From contig CM037878.1 in NCBI GenBank assembly GCA_021292165.1, positions 5,148,804 to 5,212,803 of the forward strand: a stretch of DNA of 64,000 bases, written 5' to 3'. The notes beneath the pieces are model-generated. The model had not been told where the DNA came from and did no database searches. It worked only from the letters and a program-made list of their open reading frames with translations. The first letter of the stretch is position 1, and every line of letters starts with the position of its first letter. The position numbers and the translations under genes are program-made. Shown piece after piece: positions 17,858 to 59,904 of the stretch. The stretch comes from Shinisaurus crocodilurus. Its lineage: Eukaryota; Chordata; Lepidosauria; Squamata; Shinisauridae.

Positions 17858-20800
17858 CCCCTCGCTGGATCGTCACCTTGAAGTGGTGAGTGGGCTTGCG
17901 TGTTCCGATGAATCCTGTGAGCAATGCCGTCGGGAGCTATGTACTCCCAGTAGGGTCACCCATGGCGGTAAGGTCCGGGGAGAGGAACCAGACAAAGAAC
18001 GATCCAAAACAAAGTCCTCAACGGCAGAACAGGCGGAAGATAATTAAACCTAAATTACAACGGCTGTGAAGGCGGATGAAGGCTGCAGCAGAGAATGGTT
18101 TTCCAATCGTCAGGGTAACCGTGCCATTGGATCTCTGCCGTACTCTGTCAAGTTTGTGTGGTGATTCGTTGTGCACCGATCTCCCCACATAAAACAGTTT
18201 CACGCACAGGCGTCTTCCAACCCAACCCATCCAACCCAACCCAACCCAACCAAACAAACATAAAAAAAGTCCCATGGCGACTGGCGAACGGTGACGGGGG
18301 CAGGACTGTGAATCTGGAAGCCCCTAGCCATGGACCAGCACATGGGCGGTGGATGCAGACTCAGTCGCCCTGTTCAAGGAACGAGGTAGTCGAGCAGCTC
18401 GGCAGCTGTATCCATGACTGAGCAGCCCTATTTAGGATCCACTCTGCTCACCCCGTATGGGGAGGGGGCTAGAAAAGGTGCCCTAAACATAGTCTACCTC
18501 TTTCTCCCCTGACTGGATTACCGCGTCCAGTGGGGTCACCATTTTAGCGGTCGAAAAAGACATTTGAATTTTGGAACATGGAATATACGGACATTGCTGG
18601 ATAACATAGATAGTGAATGCCCTGAGCGTAGGACTGCTATTATTGCAAGGGAGCTGAGACGGTTTAAAATTGACATAGCAGCACTTCAAGAAACTCGAAG
18701 GGCAGGAGAGGGACAGTTGAAAGAAGAAAAAGGAGGTTATACCTTCTTCTGGAAAGGACTACCTGAGCAGGACCGACGAATACATGGAGTAGGCTTTGCC
18801 ATCAAAAATGAACTAGTGAACTCTTTGTCAGAAGTTCCTACTGGCATTAACGAACGCCTGATAACTCTTCGATTAAAGCTCGCCAATAACCAACAGGTAA
18901 CTATTTTGAGCGCTTATGCACCAACATTAGATGCTGATGATGACATCAAGGAAAGTTTTTATAGCCAGTTGGACACTCTCCTGTCAGAGATACCTAAGGA
19001 GGATAAAATTATCCTCCTGGGCGATTTTAACGCAAGAGTCGGGCGTGACTCTGATTTATGGCCAGAAACTATTGGAAAAGACGGAGTTGGTAATAGCAAC
19101 CCGAACGGACTCTTACTTTTGTCTATATGTGCAGAGCATAATCTCACTATTACAAACACGCTCTTTCGACAGAAGAATAAGCTTAAAACATCATGGCAGC
19201 ACCCACGGTCAAAGCACTGGCATCTTCTGGATTATGTAATTGTCCGTGTTAGAGATCGCCGCGATGTACTTCTTACTAGGGCCATGGTGAGTGCCGACGA
19301 CTGCTGGACAGACCACCGACTAATCAGGTCCACAATGGTTATCAACATTGCTCCCCAACGTAGGCTTCAAGGAAGGAAACCAAGGCGTAAAATGAACATC
19401 CAAGTCCTTCAAGATCCTATTAAGCAAACTCGTCTTCAATCACTTCTTAAGGAACATCTACCTACGGAACCTCCTGACAACATTGAGGACCATTGGTCTA
19501 AGCTGAAAACCTCCATTACTGCAGCTTGTGAACAAACTATTGGATATGAAACTAAGAAACATCAGGATTGGTTTGATGAAAATGATAATGAGATTAAATA
19601 TATAATTGACCAAAAAAGGAAAGCCTTCCAAATATGGCAAAATGATATTAACTGCGCTGCCAAGAAAAAAACCTACGCTAGCGCAAAGGCTGAGGTCCAA
19701 AGAAGAACAAGAGAACTTAAGAACGCTTGGTGGAAAAAGAAAGCTGAGGAAATTCAACAACTTGCAGAATCTCATGATGCACGGGGCTTTTTTAAGGCCA
19801 CAAGGGCCATTTATGGACCAAAAACCTATGGTACAAACCCTTTACAATCAAAAGATGGCACCAAACTCTTAAAAGACAAAGAGTCTATTGCACTGCGTTG
19901 GAAAGAGCATTATTATGACCTTTTAAATCGTAAATCTAAGGTGGATAATGAGATTTTTTCGCAAATCCCACAAAAACAAATTAAAGAGGAACTTGCAATA
20001 CTCCCCACTTTGGATGAAGTTATAAAAGCCATTAATCAAATGAAGAATAACAAAGCTAGTGGACCAGATGGGATTCCTGCTGAAATCTTTAAAGAAGGGG
20101 GCCCCGAACTTGTACAACATCTTCATAAACTCATTGAAAAAATCTGGATAAGAGAAGAGATCCCAGAAGACTTCAGGGATGCCATAATTATCACCCTCTT
20201 TAAGAAGGGTGATAGAACAGACTGTGGAAACTATCGGGGCATTTCTCTCTTAGCAACCGCAGGTAAAATATTTGCTAGGATTCTCGCAAACCGTCTTCTA
20301 TCTATTTCAGAAGAGATCCTCCCTGAAACTCAATATGGTTTCCGCCCCTCTAGAGGGACAGTAGACATGATTTTTACTGCACGTCAGCTCCAAGAAAAAT
20401 GCCGGGAGCAAAATCAACCCCTTTATATGGCATTTATCGATTTGGCTAAGGCCTTTGATACTGTAGACCGTACAGCTCTCTGGACTATCCTTATGAAAAT
20501 TGGATGCCCCAATAAATTTGTGAATATCTTGCGACTTCTCCATGACAACATGACGGCAACGGTTTTGGACAACAACGGCTCTCATGGTGCTCCATTTAAA
20601 GTGGGATCAGGTGTTAAACAGGGATGTGTTATCGCCCCAACATTATTTGCCATTTTCATCGCCATGGTTTTACATCTTGTCAAGGGGAAACTTCCCACTG
20701 GTGTGGGAATTATATATCGAACAGATGGAAAGCTTTTTAATCTCAGCAGGCTGAAAGCAAAAAGTAAGGTAATTACAACCTCCGTTGTGGAACTTCAGTA

Positions 20801-21834
20801 TGCTGATGATAATGTAGTCTCCGCACATTCAGAGGATGATCTCCAAACTATCCTAAATGCTTTTGCAGAAGCATACGAAAAACTTGGTCTCTCACTTAAC
20901 ATCAAAAAGACCAAAGTGCTTCATCAGCAAGTGCAAGCTAACCCTTTGGTGATGCCATCTATCCAGCTTGGCGGGACAATACTGGAAAATGTCGATCATT
21001 TTCTCTATCTTGGCAGCTATCTTTCTGTTACAGCTAACATCGACAGTGAAATCCAGCATCGTTTGAGCTCCGCAAGTGCCGCATTTTCTCGAATGAAACA
21101 TAGAGTGTTCGAGGATCGGGATATTTGTAAGAAGACCAAAACACTGGTTTATGAAGCCATTGTATTACCAACTTTATTGTATGCCTGCGAAACATGGACT
21201 ATCTATAAACGTCACTTCCACCTCCTTGAAAGGTTTCATCAACGTTGCCTCCGGAAAATCCTGCAAATTACTTGGGAAGATAGGCGAACAAATGTCAGTG
21301 TACTGGAAGAAGCAAAGACTACTAGCATTGAAAAAATGATCCTTCAACGCCAACTTCAGTGGACCGGTCATGTTGTTCGAATGCCTGACTGCCGTCTCCC
21401 AAAGCAGTTACTTTACTCCCAACTCAAGAATGGAAAGCGGAATATCGGTGGTCAATATAAGAGGTTTAAAGATGTTCATAAGGCTAATCTAAAAAAATGC
21501 AATATAAACATCGAAAACTGGGAAGCTCTGGCCCATGAACGATCTAAATGGAGGTTGGCCTTTCACAAAGGTTCCATGGACTTTGAAGAAGCCCGAGTGC
21601 AAGGTGAAAGGGAGAAACGTGCTAAGCGAAAAGCACGTCAAATGAATCCTTTACAGGACCATCTTCTATCTGGTAACCTGTGTCCTCACTGTGGGAAGCT
21701 GTGTGGATCTAGAATTGGCCTCCACAGTCACTTACGGACCCATCGCTAGAGTCTACACAATCTTCTTTAGAATTTCCTCCTTTTATCCCGGAAGACAATC
21801 TTACTCGGTCACGAGTGATCGCCTGATGATGATG
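17858..21834 (+). mobile_element. Full-length non-LTR retrotransposon (I-superfamily / Vingi-like, inferred)
   Basis: A complete LINE of 3977 bp. A perfect 12-bp target-site duplication, acatggagctgt, lies at 17846-17857 and 21835-21846. The order is a GC-rich 5' UTR (17858-18512, with a (CCAAC)n tract near 18217-18260), one long ORF, an 85-bp 3' UTR and a (TGA)n tail. The element has a single apurinic-type endonuclease plus RT protein and a C-terminal C2H2 finger. That organisation and the EN/RT wording resemble Ingi/Vingi-type elements annotated in reptiles, often mislabelled 'craniofacial development protein 2-like', but clade assignment needs a tree. Two truncated relatives occur at 9762 and 46599. 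Confidence 0.92.
18564..21749 (+). CDS. LINE endonuclease/reverse transcriptase polyprotein
   Basis: The 1061-codon frame would encode the protein that nicks target DNA and copies the LINE RNA in place. Residue numbers count from 18564. The N-terminal endonuclease domain has FGTWNIRT at 3-10, the QETR catalytic block at 42-45, GDFNAR at 153-158 and the catalytic TDHR at 249-252. The RT domain follows, with AFIDLAKAFD (catalytic Asp 626) and YADD at 746-749. The C-terminus is a classical C2H2 finger: Cys1040, Cys1043, His1056, His1060. The frame is open from 18513, but position 18564 is TTG. There is no in-frame ATG before the one near 19284, which would delete the endonuclease, and a TGA lies in frame at 18510-18512. 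So the natural start is either non-AUG or lost in this copy. Otherwise no lesion is visible. Confidence 0.9.
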   Translation: MNFGTWNIRTLLDNIDSECPERRTAIIARELRRFKIDIAALQETRRAGEGQLKEEKGGYTFFWKGLPEQDRRIHGVGFAIKNELVNSLSEVPTGINERLITLRLKLANNQQVTILSAYAPTLDADDDIKESFYSQLDTLLSEIPKEDKIILLGDFNARVGRDSDLWPETIGKDGVGNSNPNGLLLLSICAEHNLTITNTLFRQKNKLKTSWQHPRSKHWHLLDYVIVRVRDRRDVLLTRAMVSADDCWTDHRLIRSTMVINIAPQRRLQGRKPRRKMNIQVLQDPIKQTRLQSLLKEHLPTEPPDNIEDHWSKLKTSITAACEQTIGYETKKHQDWFDENDNEIKYIIDQKRKAFQIWQNDINCAAKKKTYASAKAEVQRRTRELKNAWWKKKAEEIQQLAESHDARGFFKATRAIYGPKTYGTNPLQSKDGTKLLKDKESIALRWKEHYYDLLNRKSKVDNEIFSQIPQKQIKEELAILPTLDEVIKAINQMKNNKASGPDGIPAEIFKEGGPELVQHLHKLIEKIWIREEIPEDFRDAIIITLFKKGDRTDCGNYRGISLLATAGKIFARILANRLLSISEEILPETQYGFRPSRGTVDMIFTARQLQEKCREQNQPLYMAFIDLAKAFDTVDRTALWTILMKIGCPNKFVNILRLLHDNMTATVLDNNGSHGAPFKVGSGVKQGCVIAPTLFAIFIAMVLHLVKGKLPTGVGIIYRTDGKLFNLSRLKAKSKVITTSVVELQYADDNVVSAHSEDDLQTILNAFAEAYEKLGLSLNIKKTKVLHQQVQANPLVMPSIQLGGTILENVDHFLYLGSYLSVTANIDSEIQHRLSSASAAFSRMKHRVFEDRDICKKTKTLVYEAIVLPTLLYACETWTIYKRHFHLLERFHQRCLRKILQITWEDRRTNVSVLEEAKTTSIEKMILQRQLQWTGHVVRMPDCRLPKQLLYSQLKNGKRNIGGQYKRFKDVHKANLKKCNINIENWEALAHERSKWRLAFHKGSMDFEEARVQGEREKRAKRKARQMNPLQDHLLSGNLCPHCGKLCGSRIGLHSHLRTHR

Positions 21835-31275: not shown

Positions 31276-32690
31276 TGATTTATTTTTTTTTAAATATTTT
31301 TTTATTTAAAAATGTTTAAACAATACAAAGAAAATAACACACACATATAACTAATATAGTGCTCCCATCACCATGGGACCAAATAATACAATGACTCTAT
31401 AATTGTTCATTATTCCAAAAATACAACATATCCTGACAGGGTAAACTCCCTTTCCCCTTTTTTAACATATTCCAGAAATAAACCCCAAATATCCTTGAAA
31501 ATATTTTTCTTTAATTGACCCCTTTTGCATTTGATATTACAAGTCAACATATCATTCAATGCCATATCCCATACTTCTTTATACCAATCAGTAATAGTGA
31601 AAGCTTGCTGAATTTTCCATTTCCTTGCTATCATTAGTCTACCTGCCGTTAACAAATTTATAATTAATTCTTTAACATTTTTAGGACCTATCACCTTTTC
31701 TGTTATTGATAGCAAAGCTAGTTTAGGACAAACCTCTAAATCAGCTCCAACAATTTCTGACATTTCCTCAAAAATCATTTTCCAAAAATCCATTACATTT
31801 TTACAACTCCACCACATATGAGCATATGTACCCAACTCCTGACATCCTCGCCAACACACTGGAGAACATTTATTATCTATTCTATTTAATCTCACCGGAG
31901 TCAAATACCATCTCCAAATTAGCTTATAAAAATTCTCTTTAATTCTTATAGACATATTTTTCAATATTCGCCTATCCCAAATCTTGTTCCACTCGTCCTT
32001 TGATATTTCCTCTTCAAACTCTGTATCCCAAACTATTTTAAGATTTTCTGCTTGCTCTTCTGATTTCTGCAACATTTTATATAACATCTTTGTAAGACCC
32101 CTAGCTGATGCATTTCCTTCTATGAGTTCTCTGGACATAACCAACTGCTCAAATGCGGTGAAATCCCTTTCATGCTCATGTCTCCTCTTCCATTTCTTAC
32201 CCCATTGTACTAATTGAATTAAATTTAACCACGAAATTCTTCCTGCCCCAACCCTATCAATTATTTGCTGTCTTGTCTCCATTTTTTCCAGCCAATCCAT
32301 TAAACTTATCACCTTTTTCTCTCTAAAAATCCGTTCTAAATGTCTAACATTATCTGGAAAATCCTCCATAACCACCACTGGAGTAAGCGGGGATATGCCT
32401 GGTAAAAATATTTCCTTATTTCTACCCAAAATTTCTAACATATTTTTTAAAAAGGGATTTTCTAATCTTTTTGCCATAATATGTCCTTGTTTTGTAAATA
32501 AAAATTTCTCCACCCTATTACCCAATTCAAATGCTTCTATTTCCCACCACATAAAATCTTTTCTAACAATAATATCCATAATATATCTAAGTTGATTAGC
32601 TATATAATACCATTTTAAATTAGGGAGACCAAGTCTGTGGACAATTGCCCATGAACATCCATTGCTCCCCACCAAATATTGGACCTACTA
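31276..32690 (-). mobile_element. L1 LINE, 5'-truncated
   Basis: Minus-strand L1 fragment of about 1.4 kb. It contains the ORF2 C-terminus, a short 3' UTR and an A-rich tail (poly(T) on the plus strand at about 31276-31310). Homology starts abruptly near 32690, as expected for 5' truncation. Confidence 0.88.
31410..32675 (-). pseudogene. L1 ORF2 C-terminal fragment (421 codons, open)
   Basis: The frame encodes the post-RT region of L1 ORF2. A LGLPNLKWYYIANQL block lies near the N-terminus. WRWYLTPVRLNRID follows, then the L1 C-terminal cysteine motif (CWRGC...GTYAHMWWSC). These features are characteristic of L1 and absent from CR1. The endonuclease and the RT catalytic core are missing, so the fragment cannot mobilise itself, yet it has no stop over 421 codons, which indicates a fairly young insertion. 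The Met used here is simply the first in frame and not the native start. Confidence 0.88.
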
Positions 32691-51221: not shown

Positions 51222-51910
51222 AGAATCATAGAATCATAGAATCATAGAAAAGTAGAGTTGGAAGGGGCCTACAAGGCCATCGAGTCCAACCCCCTGCTCA
51301 ATGCAGGAATCCAGGTCAAAGCATCCCCGACAGATGTCTGTCCAGCCGCACCTTGAATGCCTCCAGACTGGGAGAGCCCACCACCTCCCTAGGTAGTTGA
51401 TTCCATTGTCTTATTGCTCTGACAGTCAGGAAATTTTTCCTGATGTTTAGGTGGAATCTAGGTTCCTGTAACTTGAGCCCATTATTCCGTGTCCTGCAAA
51501 CTGGGATGAACGAGAAGAGATCTTTGCCCTCCTCTGTGTGACATCCCTTCAAATACTGGAAGAGTGCGATCATATCTCCCCTCAGTCTCCTCTTCTGAAG
51601 GCTAAACATGCCCAGTTCTTTCAGTCTCTCCTCATAGGGCCTTGTTTCCAGTCCCTTTATCATCCTTGTTGCCCTCCTCTGAACCCTCTCCAGTTTGTCT
51701 ATGTCCTTCTTAAAGTGAGGTGCCCAGAACTGGACGCAGTACTCAAGATGAGGCCTAACCAGTGCCGAGTAAAGGGGAATTATCACTTCCCGCGATTTGG
51801 AAGCTATACTTCTATTAATACAGCCCAAAATTGCATTTGCCTTCTTTGCAGCCACATCGCATTGCTGGCTCATATTCAGTTTGTGATCTACCACAATTCC
51901 AAGATCCCCT
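51222..51910 (-). mobile_element. CR1 LINE with an open 192-codon ORF2 tail
   Basis: The longest and best-kept CR1 copy. The 3' tail has tandem 'aatcatag' units at the left, then the 3' UTR. A minus-strand frame (51316-51894) runs through [46 protein letters not shown] and NQLPREVV to its stop. It covers only the region after the RT catalytic core, so it is inactive. The lack of stops implies relative youth. Confidence 0.92.
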
Positions 51911-52717: not shown

Positions 52718-53185
52718 CAGGGCCGGCGCTACCGCTAGGCAAACTAGGCGGTTGCCTAGGGCGCGTGGCTGAAGAGGGCGCAGAAACGCTGCACTCCTCT
52801 TCGCTGCAGCCGCCACCACCCCCGCCGCCCCCCCCGGTGCCCCCGCCACCGCCAGGCCGCCACCGCCGTGCTGCCACCGCCGCCACCGCGCCCCCACCGC
52901 CCCCACCGCGCTGCCACCGCCGGGCCTCCCCCCCCACCGCCACCGCCGCCGCCGGGCCGCCTCCCCCGCTGCCGCCACCACCACCACCACCCGACCCCCC
53001 CGCCACCTACCTTCTCCGCGCCGCTTCTGGAGCCCCGCCCACGTTGTTTTGGTGGGAGGAACCAGGGCAACAGGGCTTAAACAGCCCTGTTGCCCTGGTT
53101 TCCCTGGCCAAAAACAGAGCGCGGGGGTCCCATCGCGTCACTTCCTCCTCGAAGGAGGAGGTGGCCAGGGCGGGGGGGAAGGTAG
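52718..53185. repeat. hAT family B left end joined to GC-rich repeats
   Basis: It starts CAGGGCCGGCGCTACCG, a family B-type end, with 'gttgcctagggcgc'. It then passes into a (CCACCGCCG)-like low-complexity tract (52800-53000) and the GC-rich repeat shared with 30.2 kb (53040-53150), including a 'ccagggcaacaggg' / 'ccctgttgccctgg' palindrome. No right end was found, so internal expansion or fusion is likely. Proline- and glycine-rich frames here are artefacts. Confidence 0.55.
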
Positions 53186-53545
53186 GTGGCGGCGGGGGGG
53201 TGGCGGATATGGAGGTCCCAGGTTATGACATGCACTGAAGTAGCTGCATGGATTTCATTAATTCTGTTTATTCTAAAGATTAACATACCGCCCTTTAGCA
53301 GAGTTTGCAGGGTGGCTTACAATAGGAATGGGAGAGCCAGGGTGTTTGAGCTCACCGAAACATCTCTGAACTTTACTTCGAAGCTTGGTTCAGCTCGCTC
53401 CCACTTTCATTGGCGGCCTGTTTTTTGGTTCGTTCGAAAGGGGAAAGCACACATTTCAATGTGCAGTTTCAAAGGTGCACACTTTTTTGCCCGTTGACTA
53501 TCGCATGGACATTCTTATCCTTTGAAAAGTGCACATTTCAAAGTG
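53186..53545. other. Unassigned sequence
   Basis: It includes a short LINE/SINE tail-like piece ('acataccgccctttagcaga', about 53283-53325). No gene is seen. Confidence 0.3.
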
Positions 53546-54125
53546 AAGCCACGCCGCCGCCGAAGAAGCCCCGCTGCCGCCGAAGAAGCCCCGCTGCCGC
53601 CGAAGAAGCCACGCCGGGGCTTCGGCGGTGGCGAGGCTTCTTTGGCGGCAGCGGGGCTTCTTCGGCGGCGGAAGTTGGCGGCGGAAGTTGGCAGCAGTGG
53701 GGCTTCTTCGGTGGCGGAAGTTGGCGGCAGCGGGGCTTCTTCGGCGGCGGGGAGGCTTTTTCGGCGGCGGGAGCAGGTACGGTGACGGGGGTGGCGGAGG
53801 GGGTCTGGGGGTGGCAGCAGTGGTCCTGGGGGGGGCTTCGGCAGCGGCGAGGCTTTTTCGGCGGCGGCGAGGCTTTTTCGGCGGCTGGGAGGCTTTTTCG
53901 GCAGCGGGAGCAGGTACGGTGATGGGGGGTGGCGGAGGGGGTCTGGGGGTGGCGGCAGGGGTCCTGGGGGGGCTTCGGCGGCGTGGCTTTTTCGGCGGCG
54001 GCGAGGCTTTTTCGGCGGCGGCGAGGCTTTTTCGGCGGCGGGAGCAGGTACGGTGACGGGGGTGGGGGGGCTGGGGGTGGCGGCAGGGGTCCTGGGGGGG
54101 CTTCGGCGGCAGCGGGGCTTTGGCG
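53546..54125. repeat. GC-rich minisatellite with about 135-bp higher-order units
   Basis: The basic unit is about 20 bp, 'ggctttttcggcggcggcga' and variants. A larger unit marked by 'gagcaggtacggtga' recurs at 53771, 53908 and 54042 (137 and 134 bp apart), each followed by 'ggtctgggggtggc' and 'ggtcctggggg'. The left edge (53549-53615) carries the unit inverted ('gaagaagccccgctgccgcc'), so the array can fold back. Ala/Gly- and Pro-rich frames on both strands are repeat artefacts. Confidence 0.85.
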
Positions 54126-54220
54126 GCGGCGGCACTGACTCGAGTATAAGCCATGGGGGGCATTTTTCAGCACAAAAAATGGGCTGAAAAACTCGGCTTA
54201 TAGTCGAGTATATACGGTAT
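54126..54220. repeat. Palindromic repeat with CTCGAGTATAAGCC arms
   Basis: 'gactcgagtataagcc' faces 'ggcttatagtcgagtatata', and 'ttttcagcac' / 'gggctgaaaaa' extends the arms. It ends 'tatatacggtat'. Probably a DNA-transposon end that hosts the adjacent minisatellite. Confidence 0.6.
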
Positions 54221-55622
54221 ATCCTGTCTTTTTTCCTCTTGCAAGGAACCCAGATATCATACCAGTTCCATTACCTGTAGCCTGGTGGTCTTGGAGATAC
54301 TCCTACCGATAATAGGCCCAAGTAGGCAGGATGCAAAGGGTCACTTGTAAGTACCCCATTTCTGCCCAGGAGCTGGTTTTCCAAATTAGCTGGTTTTCTT
54401 TGTGGAGCGGCAGTCCACTGTTCTTCCATGTTTGATTCCTGGACTCTGTACAGACCACTGTGCCTGCACAGTTAGCTAAGGCTTCCTTCGGTTATGTTCA
54501 TTCGTGTCATTGTTGTTGTTGTTGCTGCTGTTGTTATTATTATTATTACCACCATATTGCAGTAAACAGGGCATGAGGTTTCAGTGCCCTGCATAACCCC
54601 TATGAATGTCTGAAGCTGCCTCAGCCTGAGTTAAATCAGGGTGGGCAGAAGGTAGATCTCCAGATTTTTGACTCCAACTCCCAGAAGCCCCTGCCAGCAT
54701 GACCAATGGTCAGGAAAGCTGAGAGTGGAAGTCCGAAACATCTGGAGATTTACTTTCTGCCCACCCCTGAGTTAAATCATGAGCAGAATAAATTATGCCA
54801 AACAAAATCTGCATAATTTATTCAGATTAATTACTCTGCCCTTTTCATCTATGGAAAGCTTTGAGCAGGGGTGCAGAACCTCAGGCCGGGGAGCCAAATC
54901 CTGCCCCTTCCCCTGGCCCTGGCCCCTTTCCTCCAGCTACTAGGTTTTTGGTGGTTTCCCAGCTTTTGTGCAGGTTCCCACCACCACCACCCCACATTCT
55001 AAAAGGTGGAAATGCCTCTCCTAAGGCTTAGTTACTGGCAGGAAAAGCTTTTAACTAAAACAGGCTAGTATTTTTGGCCCTGCCCTTTTGGCCCTTGACC
55101 CCGCCCACCCCTGCAATGTGGCCCCCAAGAGATTCTCCGAAATAGGATTCGGCCCTCAGGCTGAAAGAGGTTCAACACCTTGGCTTTGAGGAACTCGGTT
55201 AGATAACTGGTCCAGCATGTCGCCCAGCCACTCTCTCTTTATTCTGAGTAGCATCCTCAATCTTTCCCTTCTATTGAGGCCTCCTTTTCATGGCTGATGA
55301 CTGAACTGGGGTAAGACTTCATGAACACAACACGTATGGTGCTCCCCGTTGAGCTGCGGTGGTTTAGCCCTGCAGCCATCACCCCCCATGGCATTGCCAG
55401 CCCATCCAACAAGGCCCAATGACCCAATGACCCTGTGGCACCTCTTTTGTTTTAGGTAGGTGGTTGATTTTATTGTTTAGTTTTTCACCTCGTGAATGAT
55501 TTGCTGGCCTGAGCGGGAGGGCCAGTGAAAAGTATACCTGACCAAATCATGGACCCTCTGCACCTGGGGACGCCTTCCTTGAAGTGTTTGGGGCACCGGG
55601 GACATGTCACTGCAGTCTCAAT
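54221..55622. other. Intergenic sequence downstream of the CKAP5-like gene
   Basis: It contains an old MITE-like repeat at about 54640-54775 and a hAT-like remnant at about 54865-55185 ('gcaggggtgcagaacctcag' ... 'ctgaaagaggttcaacacct'). Nothing else is recognised. Confidence 0.45.
55469..55474 (-). terminator. Candidate polyadenylation signal for the CKAP5-like gene
   Basis: AATAAA on the minus strand about 150 bases past the stop codon. Sequence match only. No poly(A) remnant is visible to mark the original retrocopy end. Confidence 0.4.
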
Positions 55623-58600
55623 CTAAGCCTCTTTCTCGGCAGGAGAGCAGATCATCTGTTTGCTTTCTCTCTCTGATGCGATAACTGCCAAACCATGCTT
55701 GACGTAACTCCGGAAGAGCAGGGAGCAGTTCTTCAAGAAAGGTTCTAAGTCTGCCTTGGGGTGTTTTTCCTTGCATTCGTACAGCTCCTCAAGGCCTGCC
55801 CTGGCAGTCTCCTTGGAGTTGATCTTCTTGAAAATCTCAGCCAGTGTATTGTCGATTCTGTCCTCAGCTGGGCAAGAAGCACCTTTGTCCCCATCCACAC
55901 CAGCCTGCTCCACTGAGTGACTCACAATCTTCCATAGGTGGGCCTCCAACTCGGACTCATCTCTGTCCTCTATCAGGGTGAGATGATCCAAGATCTCAGC
56001 TCCCTTCAGCTTGCAAAGGGTGTGCAGAAGAACCTTCAGTGCCCGGAGAGGGTGACTGCTCTCGTACTGCTTCAGCTTTTCTTTAGGCCACATCTTCATG
56101 AAGATGTGGATATCCAGCAGAATCTGTTCCAAACTGACACTGCCAATGGTTTGTGGAAGGTACTTGGCAGTTTTCCACAAGCACTTGGCCACCATTTCAG
56201 AAAAGGCAAAGAGATTGGTGGCTGCCAAGCCTTCATGGAGCAGAAGAAGCAAAGAACTGAAAAGTCTGGTCTGGTCCGATTTCTCCAGCACCTTGGTTAT
56301 CAAGAGATTGACAGACTGGATACCATCCTGCCCTTCCTGAAGCTCTTCGACTGGGGGATCCAGCAATAAGGTGATGAGACTGCTCATGAGGTCCTTCAGC
56401 ACCCCAGCGGAGGCTTCCTGGGCCAGGCTCTCCACCTGGAAGAGGGAGACCATGTTGCAAACAACACAGCTGTAAAGCTCAATGACTTGTCCCTTCCTCA
56501 TCTCCTCCTCGGACGTCATGTGGAGCCGATGGATGAACTTCAGCTGTTGGATTGTTGCTATCAGAAATTGGTTTGTATGGCCAGACATCATCTCCACTTT
56601 GTCCTCTTGCTTTATAATCTCTTGGATCTGCCGTAGGGCCTCAATGCTGGTGCTGATGTTGCCACCGGCGACATTGCAAATGATCATATTGATGTTGGGA
56701 ACGACGCTGCTCTCAGCCTGAGATTTCAGGTTCACAGGTTGGGTGATGCTGTCAGCTTCTTTTGGATTTTTGTGGAAGGCCATGCTGTCAACATACTCAA
56801 CCTCAGCTCGGTCCATATGGGAAATGTAATATTCTTCCCCTGTGTGGCTGCCAGTTCCATGGCTCAATTTGGAGCCCTCCACTGACTCCGCCCAAGCAGC
56901 TAGGTTGAAGACCTCAGCATCCACTTTTTCTTCCCTGAGTTGCTTGGCTTCTGCTTCTTTTATGCTCTCCTCCAATAAGCTCATATGTTTTTCAGATATA
57001 TTCCCGATCGCCTTGAATGCCTCGACTCCATACACATTCCGAGCAGTTGCAATGACCTTCAAGGCAGCGCTATGGACAGCATTGTTTGAATCGCCCGTCA
57101 AAGTGATGATCATCTTCAGGACTTTGCTTGGGTTTGGCTGGCACACAGCTGGACCATACGTCTTCAGCAGCCATCCCAGCTCTTTCAAGCATCCTACTCG
57201 CTGGTTCGCATTCTTGGCCTGGGCTCCCTCCAGGAGGAAACAGAAAATCTTGCAGGCTGGGTAGACAAGGGTTGTTTGCTTCACTATTGCCCGCACCTCT
57301 TTGAGGATGGACTCCTTCGTCCCCCCCATTTTCAGGAGAAGGTAGGGAAGGAAGGAGGAGGCCTCGTTCTCCATCAGCTGGTATCTCTCCTCAATCAGCA
57401 GACTGAAGAGTCTTTTGAGATACTCCAAGGTCTTCATCAGCACCCATGTGTTGGTGTCAAACAACCGCAGGCTAAGCCATTTCAGGACAAGGTCCAAGCA
57501 GCTGATGACTCCATCCCTCTCGGTTTCCAAGTGCTTGGTCATCACAGTCAGAGCTTTGATGTGGTGCTGGAAATTGGAGTGAAACAGCTCCTCCTGCAGC
57601 CAGTTGGAGAGGCAGCCACACATCTGAGCCTTGAGCTGCTCAACGTACTTGCTACTTGGGGTGCTGAAGTTCCATCTCAGCACCTTCAGAGCCTTCTCAT
57701 CCTTGGCCCTCTGCTCTTTTGCCTTGGGAACAATAATGAAAATGGGGCCTGGCTTGTTACTGTCTTCCTTCATGCTAGGTTTTCCTGGCACCTTCACATT
57801 GGGTAGTCTCTTAGCTTTGGGAACGGTTCCTTCTGATTTGGCTTTTCTTATATCCAAGCTCAGTTCACTGGACCCCACATTTTCAGTAGAGCAGGAGGCT
57901 GTACTGGACTGTTCGGGAGGAGCCAAGGTCGACTTGGCCCAAGACTTGCCCCTCGGTAGCTTGGAAGGTGACTTAGAGATGTTGAAAGTGGCCTTGTCTG
58001 GCTGGCCAGCTTTGGCTTTCTCCAGCAGTGACAGCACCTCATCTCTGGATGGTGGCTTCATTTTATTGGCAGCTTCAGACATCTTCTCAAAACCAAGGTA
58101 GAGAAGGAAGAATGGCAGGGCTTCATGAGCTGCCATGCGTGTTTCCTCATGACAATCCTCCAAGGCCGAATAGAGATGAGGCACACAACGAAGCAGGTCA
58201 GTGGAGACAGAACTGGGGCACGGCAACTTCTCAGCCAGCCATCCCAGGAGCCCCTGCCTCTGGAAAAAATTCTCCTTCTTCAGATCTGTTGAGAGGTGGT
58301 CTTCCCCTTCCAGCCATTCTTTCATGCCGGTCTGCTCAGCCCAGGCTTCCACAGTGGCGAGGGCTGCCGCCCGCAAGCCGCTCTTGCTGTCCCTTAGGGT
58401 GGCAATGATGGACATCCCCAGAGTCTTGACATGATAGCGGATGCCGGGGCCCATGGCCCTCGCTAGCTGCTGAAGGACAATGAGGGTCTGCTTCACAAGG
58501 GCTTTGTTGGGGTCCTGCAAGCAAGCCCTCAAGGCAACTGGAAGGTCTCCAATGCTTGGCTGGATGGAACTGACATCACTGAGGATCCTGGAAACCTCCT

Positions 58601-59501
58601 CCAGCCCTTCTTTGCGTACCTTCCAGCTCGTATCCTGCATCTTTGACATCAGCTCTGCCGAGATCTTCTTGCTGATGTCTACAGCATCGTTCCTCCTGCA
58701 CGGCTGTGCATCCCCTCCCCTCTGGTCATTCCCGCCATCCCTGCAGAACTTGCAGCGGCCTCGGGTGGGAAGCGGAGGACTCTGGTCACTCACCTTCTCA
58801 AACTCTGCATCGATCTGGGAGAGAAGACGTGGCTTTTCGTCCTCAAAGAAGGCCCTCAGCGGGGCTCCTACATACAGGTACATCACCCCCAGGAGGTTGA
58901 AGGCGGATGCCCGCACATCCGGATGGGCTGCCTCCAAGGCAAATTTAATGTACCCAACAAAGCTTCTGGCATCCAAGCCATCAAAGCCAAAGTCCATAAT
59001 GGCACTAGACAGCCAGTTGAGGGTTTCTGAATGGGTTCTCGGGCTGTCTTGCAAGAAGGCCGCTTCCGTTACCTTCCCTGCTGTCCAGGGCAATCCACAC
59101 GCTTCAGCCACCGCAGTCAAAGCTTCCTTGGTGTCACTACTACAGATAACATCCCCAATCTTGTCCACTAGGTTTCCCAAGACAAACTGAGCTGAGGTTT
59201 TGGAGAAGTTCCCCCTCTGGGCAATCAGGGTGACGATACGCAGCTTCTTCTGCATCACTTGGAGTTTGGTCTCATTCCATCCAGGTTCTTTATCCAGCAA
59301 CCTCACTAGAGCTTGGCAGGGCATCTGGTTTTTCTCCATCTCTTCCACGGCCCTCTCAAAGGTCTCCAGGCAGGAAATTCTTTCTTTCCAGTTGCTGCTG
59401 TCCAGATGTTGGAGGCAGGATGCGGGGAGGACTGCTGCTGCTTCCAGCTCACATGATTCTTCTGAAAGTTCCTTCTCAGGCACGTTCCTTGGCTCTAGCA
59501 T
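55623..59501 (-). CDS. CKAP5/XMAP215-like TOG-domain protein, intronless retrogene
   Basis: A single-exon 1292-codon frame with no stop or frameshift. CKAP5 (ch-TOG) adds tubulin at microtubule plus ends through TOG domains. By family knowledge the blocks here are TOG3 (about residues 22-245, with LDSSNWKER, RGNFSKTSAQ, LLGVMYLYVG, FFEDEKPRLLSQIDAEFEK), TOG4 (about 275-500, WKVRKEGLEEV, TGMKEWLEGED, GWLAEKLP), TOG5 (about 605-850, VLRWNFSTP, WLQEELFHSNFQHH, ENEASSFLPYLLLK) and the C-terminal helical domain (about 935-1285, EALRQIQEIIKQEDK, LLDIHIFMK, KLKGAEILDHLTLI). TOG1, TOG2 and the last C-terminal segment of CKAP5 are missing. The Lys/Ser/Pro linker between TOG4 and TOG5 is kept. The start ATG at 59499-59501 has A at -3, and an in-frame TAG lies seven codons upstream, so it is the first possible start. 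The lack of introns marks a retrocopy. The sequence is clearly diverged from CKAP5 yet intact, suggesting function. Confidence 0.9.
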   Translation of the reverse strand: MLEPRNVPEKELSEESCELEAAAVLPASCLQHLDSSNWKERISCLETFERAVEEMEKNQMPCQALVRLLDKEPGWNETKLQVMQKKLRIVTLIAQRGNFSKTSAQFVLGNLVDKIGDVICSSDTKEALTAVAEACGLPWTAGKVTEAAFLQDSPRTHSETLNWLSSAIMDFGFDGLDARSFVGYIKFALEAAHPDVRASAFNLLGVMYLYVGAPLRAFFEDEKPRLLSQIDAEFEKVSDQSPPLPTRGRCKFCRDGGNDQRGGDAQPCRRNDAVDISKKISAELMSKMQDTSWKVRKEGLEEVSRILSDVSSIQPSIGDLPVALRACLQDPNKALVKQTLIVLQQLARAMGPGIRYHVKTLGMSIIATLRDSKSGLRAAALATVEAWAEQTGMKEWLEGEDHLSTDLKKENFFQRQGLLGWLAEKLPCPSSVSTDLLRCVPHLYSALEDCHEETRMAAHEALPFFLLYLGFEKMSEAANKMKPPSRDEVLSLLEKAKAGQPDKATFNISKSPSKLPRGKSWAKSTLAPPEQSSTASCSTENVGSSELSLDIRKAKSEGTVPKAKRLPNVKVPGKPSMKEDSNKPGPIFIIVPKAKEQRAKDEKALKVLRWNFSTPSSKYVEQLKAQMCGCLSNWLQEELFHSNFQHHIKALTVMTKHLETERDGVISCLDLVLKWLSLRLFDTNTWVLMKTLEYLKRLFSLLIEERYQLMENEASSFLPYLLLKMGGTKESILKEVRAIVKQTTLVYPACKIFCFLLEGAQAKNANQRVGCLKELGWLLKTYGPAVCQPNPSKVLKMIITLTGDSNNAVHSAALKVIATARNVYGVEAFKAIGNISEKHMSLLEESIKEAEAKQLREEKVDAEVFNLAAWAESVEGSKLSHGTGSHTGEEYYISHMDRAEVEYVDSMAFHKNPKEADSITQPVNLKSQAESSVVPNINMIICNVAGGNISTSIEALRQIQEIIKQEDKVEMMSGHTNQFLIATIQQLKFIHRLHMTSEEEMRKGQVIELYSCVVCNMVSLFQVESLAQEASAGVLKDLMSSLITLLLDPPVEELQEGQDGIQSVNLLITKVLEKSDQTRLFSSLLLLLHEGLAATNLFAFSEMVAKCLWKTAKYLPQTIGSVSLEQILLDIHIFMKMWPKEKLKQYESSHPLRALKVLLHTLCKLKGAEILDHLTLIEDRDESELEAHLWKIVSHSVEQAGVDGDKGASCPAEDRIDNTLAEIFKKINSKETARAGLEELYECKEKHPKADLEPFLKNCSLLFRSYVKHGLAVIASERESKQMICSPAEKEA

Positions 59502-59904
59502 CTTGGCTGACCTTGAGTTCTAGAACTTTGGCTAGCCACGTTGGGCATGGTGACTTTGCCCTCGGTTGGGTGGCTCTCGGCTCAGAGAGAGCAAAGCACA
59601 TTCCGGGAAACAAGAGGAGCCTGCGGTATCTTTGGGGATGTTTCTTGCTGCCCCCACCCTCCACCCTGCCCCCCCAGAAAGGAGCTGATGGTTCCCAGAG
59701 GCTGGGGACGGGGGCCTTCCTATGGGGCTGCTGCCTCCTGCTTATGTGGTGACTCTTGCCTGAAGGACCATTGTGAGGTCACTGGTGCATTGGCAGGAAT
59801 GTGGCAGCCACAGACTACAGAGAGACCAAAATGGCAGGAGAGAACCTGTGTGGTGCTAAGAGTACGATGGCGATCATATCTTGCTTCTGTGTTCTTTTGT
59901 TCAT
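59502..59904. other. 5' flank of the CKAP5-like gene
   Basis: No homology to the missing CKAP5 N-terminus is recognisable here, so the copy was 5'-truncated on insertion or has lost it. No TATA box is evident on the minus strand. The promoter is unknown. Confidence 0.4.

Follow-up and report, generated by a model that had tools for sequence, protein, structure and literature searches.

XMAP215 Proteins and the CKAP5L Gene

Each animal is usually taken to have a single XMAP215 family gene, whose protein chain carries every function of the family. The present analysis concerns a second gene of this family, CKAP5L, contained in a stretch of 64,000 nucleotides from the squamate Shinisaurus crocodilurus (GenBank assembly GCA_021292165.1, contig CM037878.1, positions 5,148,804 to 5,212,803 of the forward strand). 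This whole stretch is referred to as the window, and all coordinates are given on it. CKAP5L lies at 55623..59501 on the minus strand and has been separate from CKAP5 for hundreds of millions of years, an age taken from the species splits. Sequence comparison leaves its clade, and the constraint acting on it, well supported. Papers cited by PMC number are drawn upon in excerpt, and statements about them extend to those excerpts.

The closest described system is the ordinary animal protein, known as CKAP5, ch-TOG or XMAP215. It shares with CKAP5L the domains TOG3 and TOG4, a basic linker, TOG5, TOG6, and the helices H1-H4 of a C-terminal bundle. Unlike it, squamate CKAP5L is devoid of TOG1-TOG2 and of the terminal helix H5, has lost the first lysine of a basic pair in the linker, and evolves 11 to 14 times faster. 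H5 is the TACC3-binding helix as defined in PMC11921806, and chromosome error correction in human cells depends on the basic pair (K1142/K1143) as a unit (PMC7773332). The layout of CKAP5L equals that of a laboratory construct, ch-TOG-345C, consisting of TOG3-4-5 and the C-terminus (PMC9879976). It has been reported that this construct attains some pericentriolar localization only when endogenous ch-TOG is present and does not rescue gamma-tubulin ring complex (gamma-TuRC) recruitment or nucleation; it appeared more stably bound to pericentriolar material than the full-length protein (PMC9879976). In the case of XMAP215, binding of gamma-tubulin by TOG5-C has been reported, but this part alone did not stimulate nucleation from gamma-TuRC (PMC7338055). 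Two TOG/XMAP215 paralogues in a single organism, one with unconventional activity, are represented by Dis1 and Alp14 of fission yeast, a situation like that of CKAP5L beside CKAP5, although both yeast proteins retain their N-terminal TOG domains (PMC9701203). The same paper assigns a single XMAP215 member to non-yeast eukaryotes, which reptile CKAP5L contradicts.

The gene itself was already known in 2019. Its name, its single-exon status, and its transcripts are in print (Karin, Gamble and Jackman; PMC7038749), where, in the excerpt, it is used only as a phylogenetic marker. The main text mentions it by name a single time, and its TOG domains, H5, the basic pair, Trp686, and its function lie outside the discussion given there. 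Transcripts for all RELEC loci, CKAP5L included, were found in a pooled crested gecko transcriptome. The pool held testis, ovary, and embryo and also eye, brain, and tail and therefore gives no demonstration of tissue restriction. Function is not addressed in the papers found by a literature search limited to open-licence PMC papers. As far as searched, the equality of layout with ch-TOG-345C, the loss of H5, the loss of the first lysine of the basic pair, and a fixed tryptophan in TOG5 are new. A further literature lead, a “Ckap5 retrogene” (PMC3038937), proved unrelated: in the excerpt it is an antisense transcript within a Ckap5 intron.

The Open Frame and Its Domains

The coding sequence comprises 1292 codons and a stop, with the ATG at 59499-59501 and the TAG at 55623-55625; six codons before the ATG, at 59520-59522, there is an in-frame stop. 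At 1298 codons, the longest open stretch in the window far exceeds those of 100 Markov-1 resamplings of the window, whose mean was 197 and maximum 282. An initial annotation of this DNA had described an intact, intronless CKAP5-like frame of 1292 codons that starts at TOG3, lacks TOG1 and TOG2, and extends through TOG4 and TOG5 to the C-terminal domain. The frame is indeed open from ATG to TAG, and within the window it is a single exon of genomic DNA. Pfam and PDB sequence searches likewise recovered the TOG domains, followed by the beginning of the C-terminal bundle, in CKAP5 order, and the homology and the absence of TOG1-TOG2 held. The C-terminal domain was recovered in part: helices H1-H4 are there, and the TACC3-binding helix H5 is absent.

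All eight PDB matches at E up to 0.001 were chains of the XMAP215 family (CKAP5, Msps, ZYG-9). They cover TOG3 at residues 17-249 (58755..59453, PDB 4y5j; all features of the gene are on the minus strand), TOG4 at 274-501 (57999..58682, PDB 4qmi), TOG5 at 585-855 (56937..57749, PDB 9c13 and 5vjc), and the bundle at 1214-1285 (PDB 9f4c). The TOG4-TOG5 linker, basic by charge and isoelectric point (pI), occupies residues 502-584 (57750..57998). The limits of TOG6 and H1-H4 were transferred through the alignment from the human limits of PMC11921806, giving a TOG6 region at residues 922-1197 (from human 1517-1802; 55911..56738) and helices H1-H4 at 1212-1279 (55665..55868). Human numbering was taken as marmoset plus one, by which Y1935, R1938, L1939, and L1942 of that paper coincide with Y, R, L, and L. 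Per domain, the folded parts are 56-66% identical to Elgaria CKAP5.

Credible homology begins at about CKAP5 residue 583-587, the start of TOG3. Residues 1-500 of CKAP5 gave no tblastn match in the window at E up to 10. An upstream relic of TOG1-TOG2 or of the following linker was considered and discarded: the upstream extension of the main match, of 80 residues from CKAP5 residue 501, is of low quality and crosses two stops.

Distribution and Origin of CKAP5L

The nearest protein is a CKAP5-like protein of Elgaria, 88% identical, and 20 clusters at 69-88% identity comprise 17 squamates and three Logan records (best 120 of 992 matches listed). Searches with queries from Emys (trimmed to 915 residues) and Gymnogyps (trimmed to 880), so short that full-length CKAP5 exceeds the permitted lengths, brought CKAP5L-type proteins also from turtles, Alligator, and birds. 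With about 8000 candidates scored in each protein search, none from mammals, amphibians, fish, or passerines was among the matches listed, and a scan of viral contigs contained no relatives. Ordinary CKAP5 is also present in Elgaria, Alligator, and Pelodiscus. In PMC7038749, four exons are incompletely sampled and CKAP5L is not among them; all 17 squamate genomes used there, Pantherophis guttatus and Pogona vitticeps included, should therefore carry it. Two CKAP5-like entries of Tamandua (P0179 and P0180; 988 and 1236 residues), in which the TOG5 site could not be located, do not have the CKAP5L layout.

A tree was built from 43 rows, 25 of the 47 CKAP5L proteins and 18 CKAP5, hand-picked for spread; the same rows served for most site counts. 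The CKAP5L left out (P0007, P0008, P0011, P0013-P0015, P0017, P0019-P0021, P0123, P0134, P0138-P0142, P0146, P0149, P0167, P0172, P0207) are Logan records, proteins that are short or carry a flag, and some full-length named proteins. The window copy falls inside a CKAP5L clade apart from CKAP5, with support 100/100 and in 100% of 200 bootstrap trees. The inner order of the clade broadly follows that of the species (geckos, other squamates, turtles, Alligator, birds); the CKAP5L of Alligator and Pavo form long branches, and those of Pelodiscus and Alligator are odd in composition. One CKAP5 row, P0153, a Logan record labelled as fish, groups with Periophthalmus.

A separate squamate origin from squamate CKAP5 was rejected by the approximately unbiased (AU) test (p 6.5e-6). 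One clade of CKAP5L and reptile CKAP5, that is, an origin after the split from mammals, gave an AU p of 0.131 and is not rejected, and the best tree sets CKAP5L outside amniote CKAP5 with weak support (80/65). The start region is common to squamates, turtles, Alligator, and birds: 42 of 46 proteins start 14-22 residues ahead of an AAAVLP-type motif. The exceptions are P0122 and P0161, with longer ends devoid of an initial Met, P0137, with 55 residues before the motif, and P0123, in which this end is missing. Turtle, Alligator, and bird copies mostly begin M-FELELS or close forms, where CKAP5 has IFEPELS; in squamate copies the start lies slightly farther out, by a few residues, and reads MLEP or similar. 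A bird-type Logan open reading frame (ORF) of 1255 residues, from a cluster whose contigs reach 36.9 kb at most, is an indirect sign of a single exon outside the window. The initial annotation had pictured a lone diverged retrocopy. This picture does not stand, as the gene belongs to one clade, already named, that spans squamates, crocodilians, and turtles and reaches some of the birds.

That CKAP5L arose by retroposition is suggested by its single exon together with its 5′ truncation. No poly(A) tail was seen by eye in the flanks, and no direct repeats of at least 25 nt, the length range examined, flank the gene; neither a poly(A) tail nor a target-site duplication would be expected to persist at this age.

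Constraint at the Protein Level

The subtree of 11 squamate CKAP5L holds 2.10 changes per column over 1258 columns, that is, about 2,640 replacements. At a nonsense to missense ratio of 0.048-0.057 for the codons of this gene, 127-150 stops are expected; none is present, with the reservation that the ten other frames are database proteins, not DNA, and databases favor intact frames, so that decayed orthologues are under-seen. Among simulated neutral copies, 5/1000 were still open at 5% divergence with substitutions only and 0/1000 with indels at 10% of substitutions; because of this, survivors as diverged as CKAP5L are hardly expected under neutrality.

The pattern of conservation points the same way. 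Folded parts exceed linkers in conservation by 0.293, a difference equalled by 2 of 1291 circular shifts. Site conservation in squamate CKAP5L correlates with that in archelosaur CKAP5L, with Spearman coefficients of 0.38 for 1284 sites and 0.32 when only folded parts are taken; the correlation with amniote CKAP5 is weaker (0.27 and 0.20, respectively). Across the 25 CKAP5L and 14 amniote CKAP5 rows, 157 sites are invariant. TOG5 is the best conserved domain, with a mean pairwise identity of 0.819 among the 11 squamates. Relative to CKAP5, TOG3-5 are accelerated 5.5- to 7.0-fold, TOG6 19.1-fold, and the bundle 33.5-fold, this last ratio resting on only 2 of 204 CKAP5 differences. The absence of stops despite the divergence, read earlier as a departure from neutrality, is matched at the protein level by signs of purifying selection, with folded-domain conservation beside the count of stops. 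On these comparisons, CKAP5L is a real, old gene constrained at the level of its protein.

Tubulin-Facing Residues, Basic Linker, and C-Terminus

In Stu2 TOG2, the HR-A Trp and the HR-B Ala/Asn are named as tubulin determinants (PMC6641166). W686 and the C-terminus were scored on all 47 CKAP5L and the other residues on the 25 rows. The HR-A loop Trp of TOG3 (W38) is kept in 25/25 rows and that of TOG4 (W293) in 23/25 (one Gly, one gap); the HR-A Phe and the HR-B Asn of TOG5 are each kept in 25/25. By a hand count from W341, A384-N385 of Stu2 TOG2 align to T683-N684 of CKAP5L. Two residues past the conserved N684, in the predicted HR-B loop of TOG5, lies W686 (57444..57446). This residue is Trp in 47/47 CKAP5L and in 0/138 other scorable family members (126 Ser, 11 Thr, 1 Ala), the comparison set being 171 other proteins of which 33 could not be scored. 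It is the most striking of 17 sites, out of 1292, that are near-fixed in CKAP5L with a residue absent from all 18 CKAP5 rows, and it is predicted to lie on the tubulin face of TOG5.

An 88-residue TOG4-TOG5 linker segment of the window copy has a net charge of +9 and a pI of 10.0. The linker is basic in squamates (pI 9.7-10.6 in 11 species) and turtles; in Oxyura (pI 5.3) and Pezoporus (6.8), both birds, it is not. Both lysines of the mitotic basic pair are found in 15/18 CKAP5 rows, the other three being gapped. In CKAP5L, the first is replaced in 25/25 rows and the second kept in 23/25; by alignment, the pair in the window copy is V569-K570 (57792..57797).

The window copy ends 13 residues past H4, before H5. 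H5 is absent in 21/21 squamate-type CKAP5L (three of them Logan records), recognizable in 5/5 turtle proteins (with a small gap in Emys), and degenerate in Alligator and 3/3 palaeognaths. The bundle H1-H4 is complete in 30 proteins (squamate-type, turtles, Alligator, palaeognaths) and not intact in 17/17 neognath-type records (P0132, P0134-P0143, P0146, P0149, P0161, P0167, P0172, P0207). The ends of P0138 and P0139 look by eye like more distal pieces; some neognath records may be broken or misannotated, not cleanly shortened.

A Putative Nonpolymerase XMAP215 Protein

The favored explanation, to which about even credence is given, is that the frame is the squamate CKAP5L orthologue, a 5′-truncated CKAP5 copy of single origin under purifying selection, and that its product would act as a tubulin- or lattice-binding factor that is not a polymerase. 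The gene would have arisen a single time, in an early ancestor of the reptiles or the amniotes, from a CKAP5 mRNA truncated at its 5′ end. Its protein would be the XMAP215 polymerase in a naturally occurring TOG3-4-5-C form. TOG3, TOG4, the modified TOG5, and the basic linker would hold tubulin or the microtubule lattice. Devoid of TOG1-TOG2, the protein would be incapable of the tubulin feeding carried out by CKAP5; lacking H5, it would not be docked by TACC3, being TACC3-independent in squamates; and with a broken basic pair it would take no part in kinetochore error correction of the CKAP5 type. It may bind formed microtubule arrays or nucleation sites beside ordinary CKAP5, stabilizing or tempering them, probably in particular cell types. 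The behavior of ch-TOG-345C and the gamma-tubulin binding of XMAP215 TOG5-C are the grounds for reading CKAP5L as a nonpolymerase factor of this kind that works beside CKAP5. The sequence features and the clade are demonstrated here; binding, localization, tissue, and effect are inferred.

A wider proposal is more tentative. CKAP5L may be a second, repurposed vertebrate XMAP215-type protein in which tubulin feeding, docking by TACC3, and kinetochore error correction were abandoned and a Trp on the tubulin face of TOG5 was gained early. In reptiles and part of the birds it would now control stable or specialized microtubule arrays, which mammals assemble in its absence. Since the polymerase half is missing, CKAP5L separates the functions of TOG3-5 and the C-terminus in an experiment done by nature, and it is amenable to testing in turtle, lizard, or bird cells.

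Several observations weigh against the favored explanation. An Arg in one of the late HEAT loops of TOG5 is replaced by His or Cys in 22/25 CKAP5L rows; in TOG4, K294 is Lys in 12/25, R296 is Arg in 15/25, and R455 is Arg in 13/25; R197 of TOG3 is Gln in 7/25. This erosion of presumed tubulin-side basic residues weakens the case for strong tubulin binding. Given the 11- to 14-fold faster evolution, found in three species pairs, much of the sequence change may reflect relaxed constraint. Orthologue frames were taken from database proteins, not from DNA, and several of these seem damaged or incomplete; the Pantherophis and Amazona records are flagged low quality, and that of Pogona has 1063 residues and is without most of TOG3. 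Moreover, ch-TOG-345C, being human-derived, presumably keeps H5 and the basic pair, whereas in squamate CKAP5L both H5 and the first of the two lysines are gone.

Alternative Explanations

Fast evolution and patchy presence are typical of germline genes. CKAP5L evolves fast and is absent from part of the birds, and a germline or early-embryo factor, expressed mainly in testis or oocyte and for that reason fast-evolving like many retrogenes, is a plausible contender, though held at less than even probability. The gecko pool with the CKAP5L transcript included testis, ovary, and embryo, but it also held eye, brain, and tail (PMC7038749).

A dominant competitor is considered unlikely. CKAP5L would in this case take tubulin, lattice, or gamma-tubulin sites and slow CKAP5 where stable, slow microtubules are needed. 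The absence of TOG1-TOG2 from a protein that yet keeps the HR-A Trp/Phe and HR-B Asn, and in squamates the basic linker, would suit such a role, as would the apparently greater stability of ch-TOG-345C at pericentriolar material without rescue of nucleation (PMC9879976). However, the part expected to target the protein, TOG6 and the C-terminal bundle, shows the greatest acceleration over CKAP5 (19.1-fold for TOG6; 33.5-fold for the bundle, from those 2 of 204 differences), and the bundle is kept in 0/17 neognath records.

It is more doubtful still that CKAP5L is a slowly dying duplicate, redundant, weakly selected, and lost piecewise. Over the 47 proteins, the C-terminus does form a series of erosion, from turtles with H5, through the degenerate H5 of Alligator and palaeognaths, to its absence in the squamate type, with the neognath bundle not intact; no passerine CKAP5L is among the matches listed, and basic residues are eroded in TOG3, TOG4, and TOG5. 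Conversely, a dying gene would hardly combine 0 stops among about 2,640 squamate replacements with 157 sites invariant across CKAP5L and amniote CKAP5 and a derived Trp held in 47/47 CKAP5L. Finally, a neutral pseudogene open by luck, favored by the fast evolution and nothing else, has next to no probability and is rejected on the 0 stops against 127-150 expected, the simulated copies (5/1000 open at 5% divergence, 0/1000 with indels), and the orthologous proteins of similar length across squamates.

Other Features of the Window

No Rfam match was obtained in the window at gathering scores. An unbroken ORF of 1061 residues at 18564-21749 (plus strand) contains endonuclease and reverse transcriptase domains and is apparently an intact ORF of a non-LTR (long terminal repeat) retrotransposon. 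Two minus-strand ORFs, at 31410-32675 (421 residues) and 51316-51894 (192 residues), have no Pfam match at E 0.01; we take them to resemble pieces of proteins of long interspersed nuclear elements. Overlapping proline/alanine-rich low-complexity ORFs on both strands at 52765-54190 are probably a GC-rich repeat. About 0.9 kb past the CKAP5L stop codon, at 54639-54766 (plus strand), there is an inverted repeat with 31-nt arms, 90% complementary, and a 66-nt spacer.

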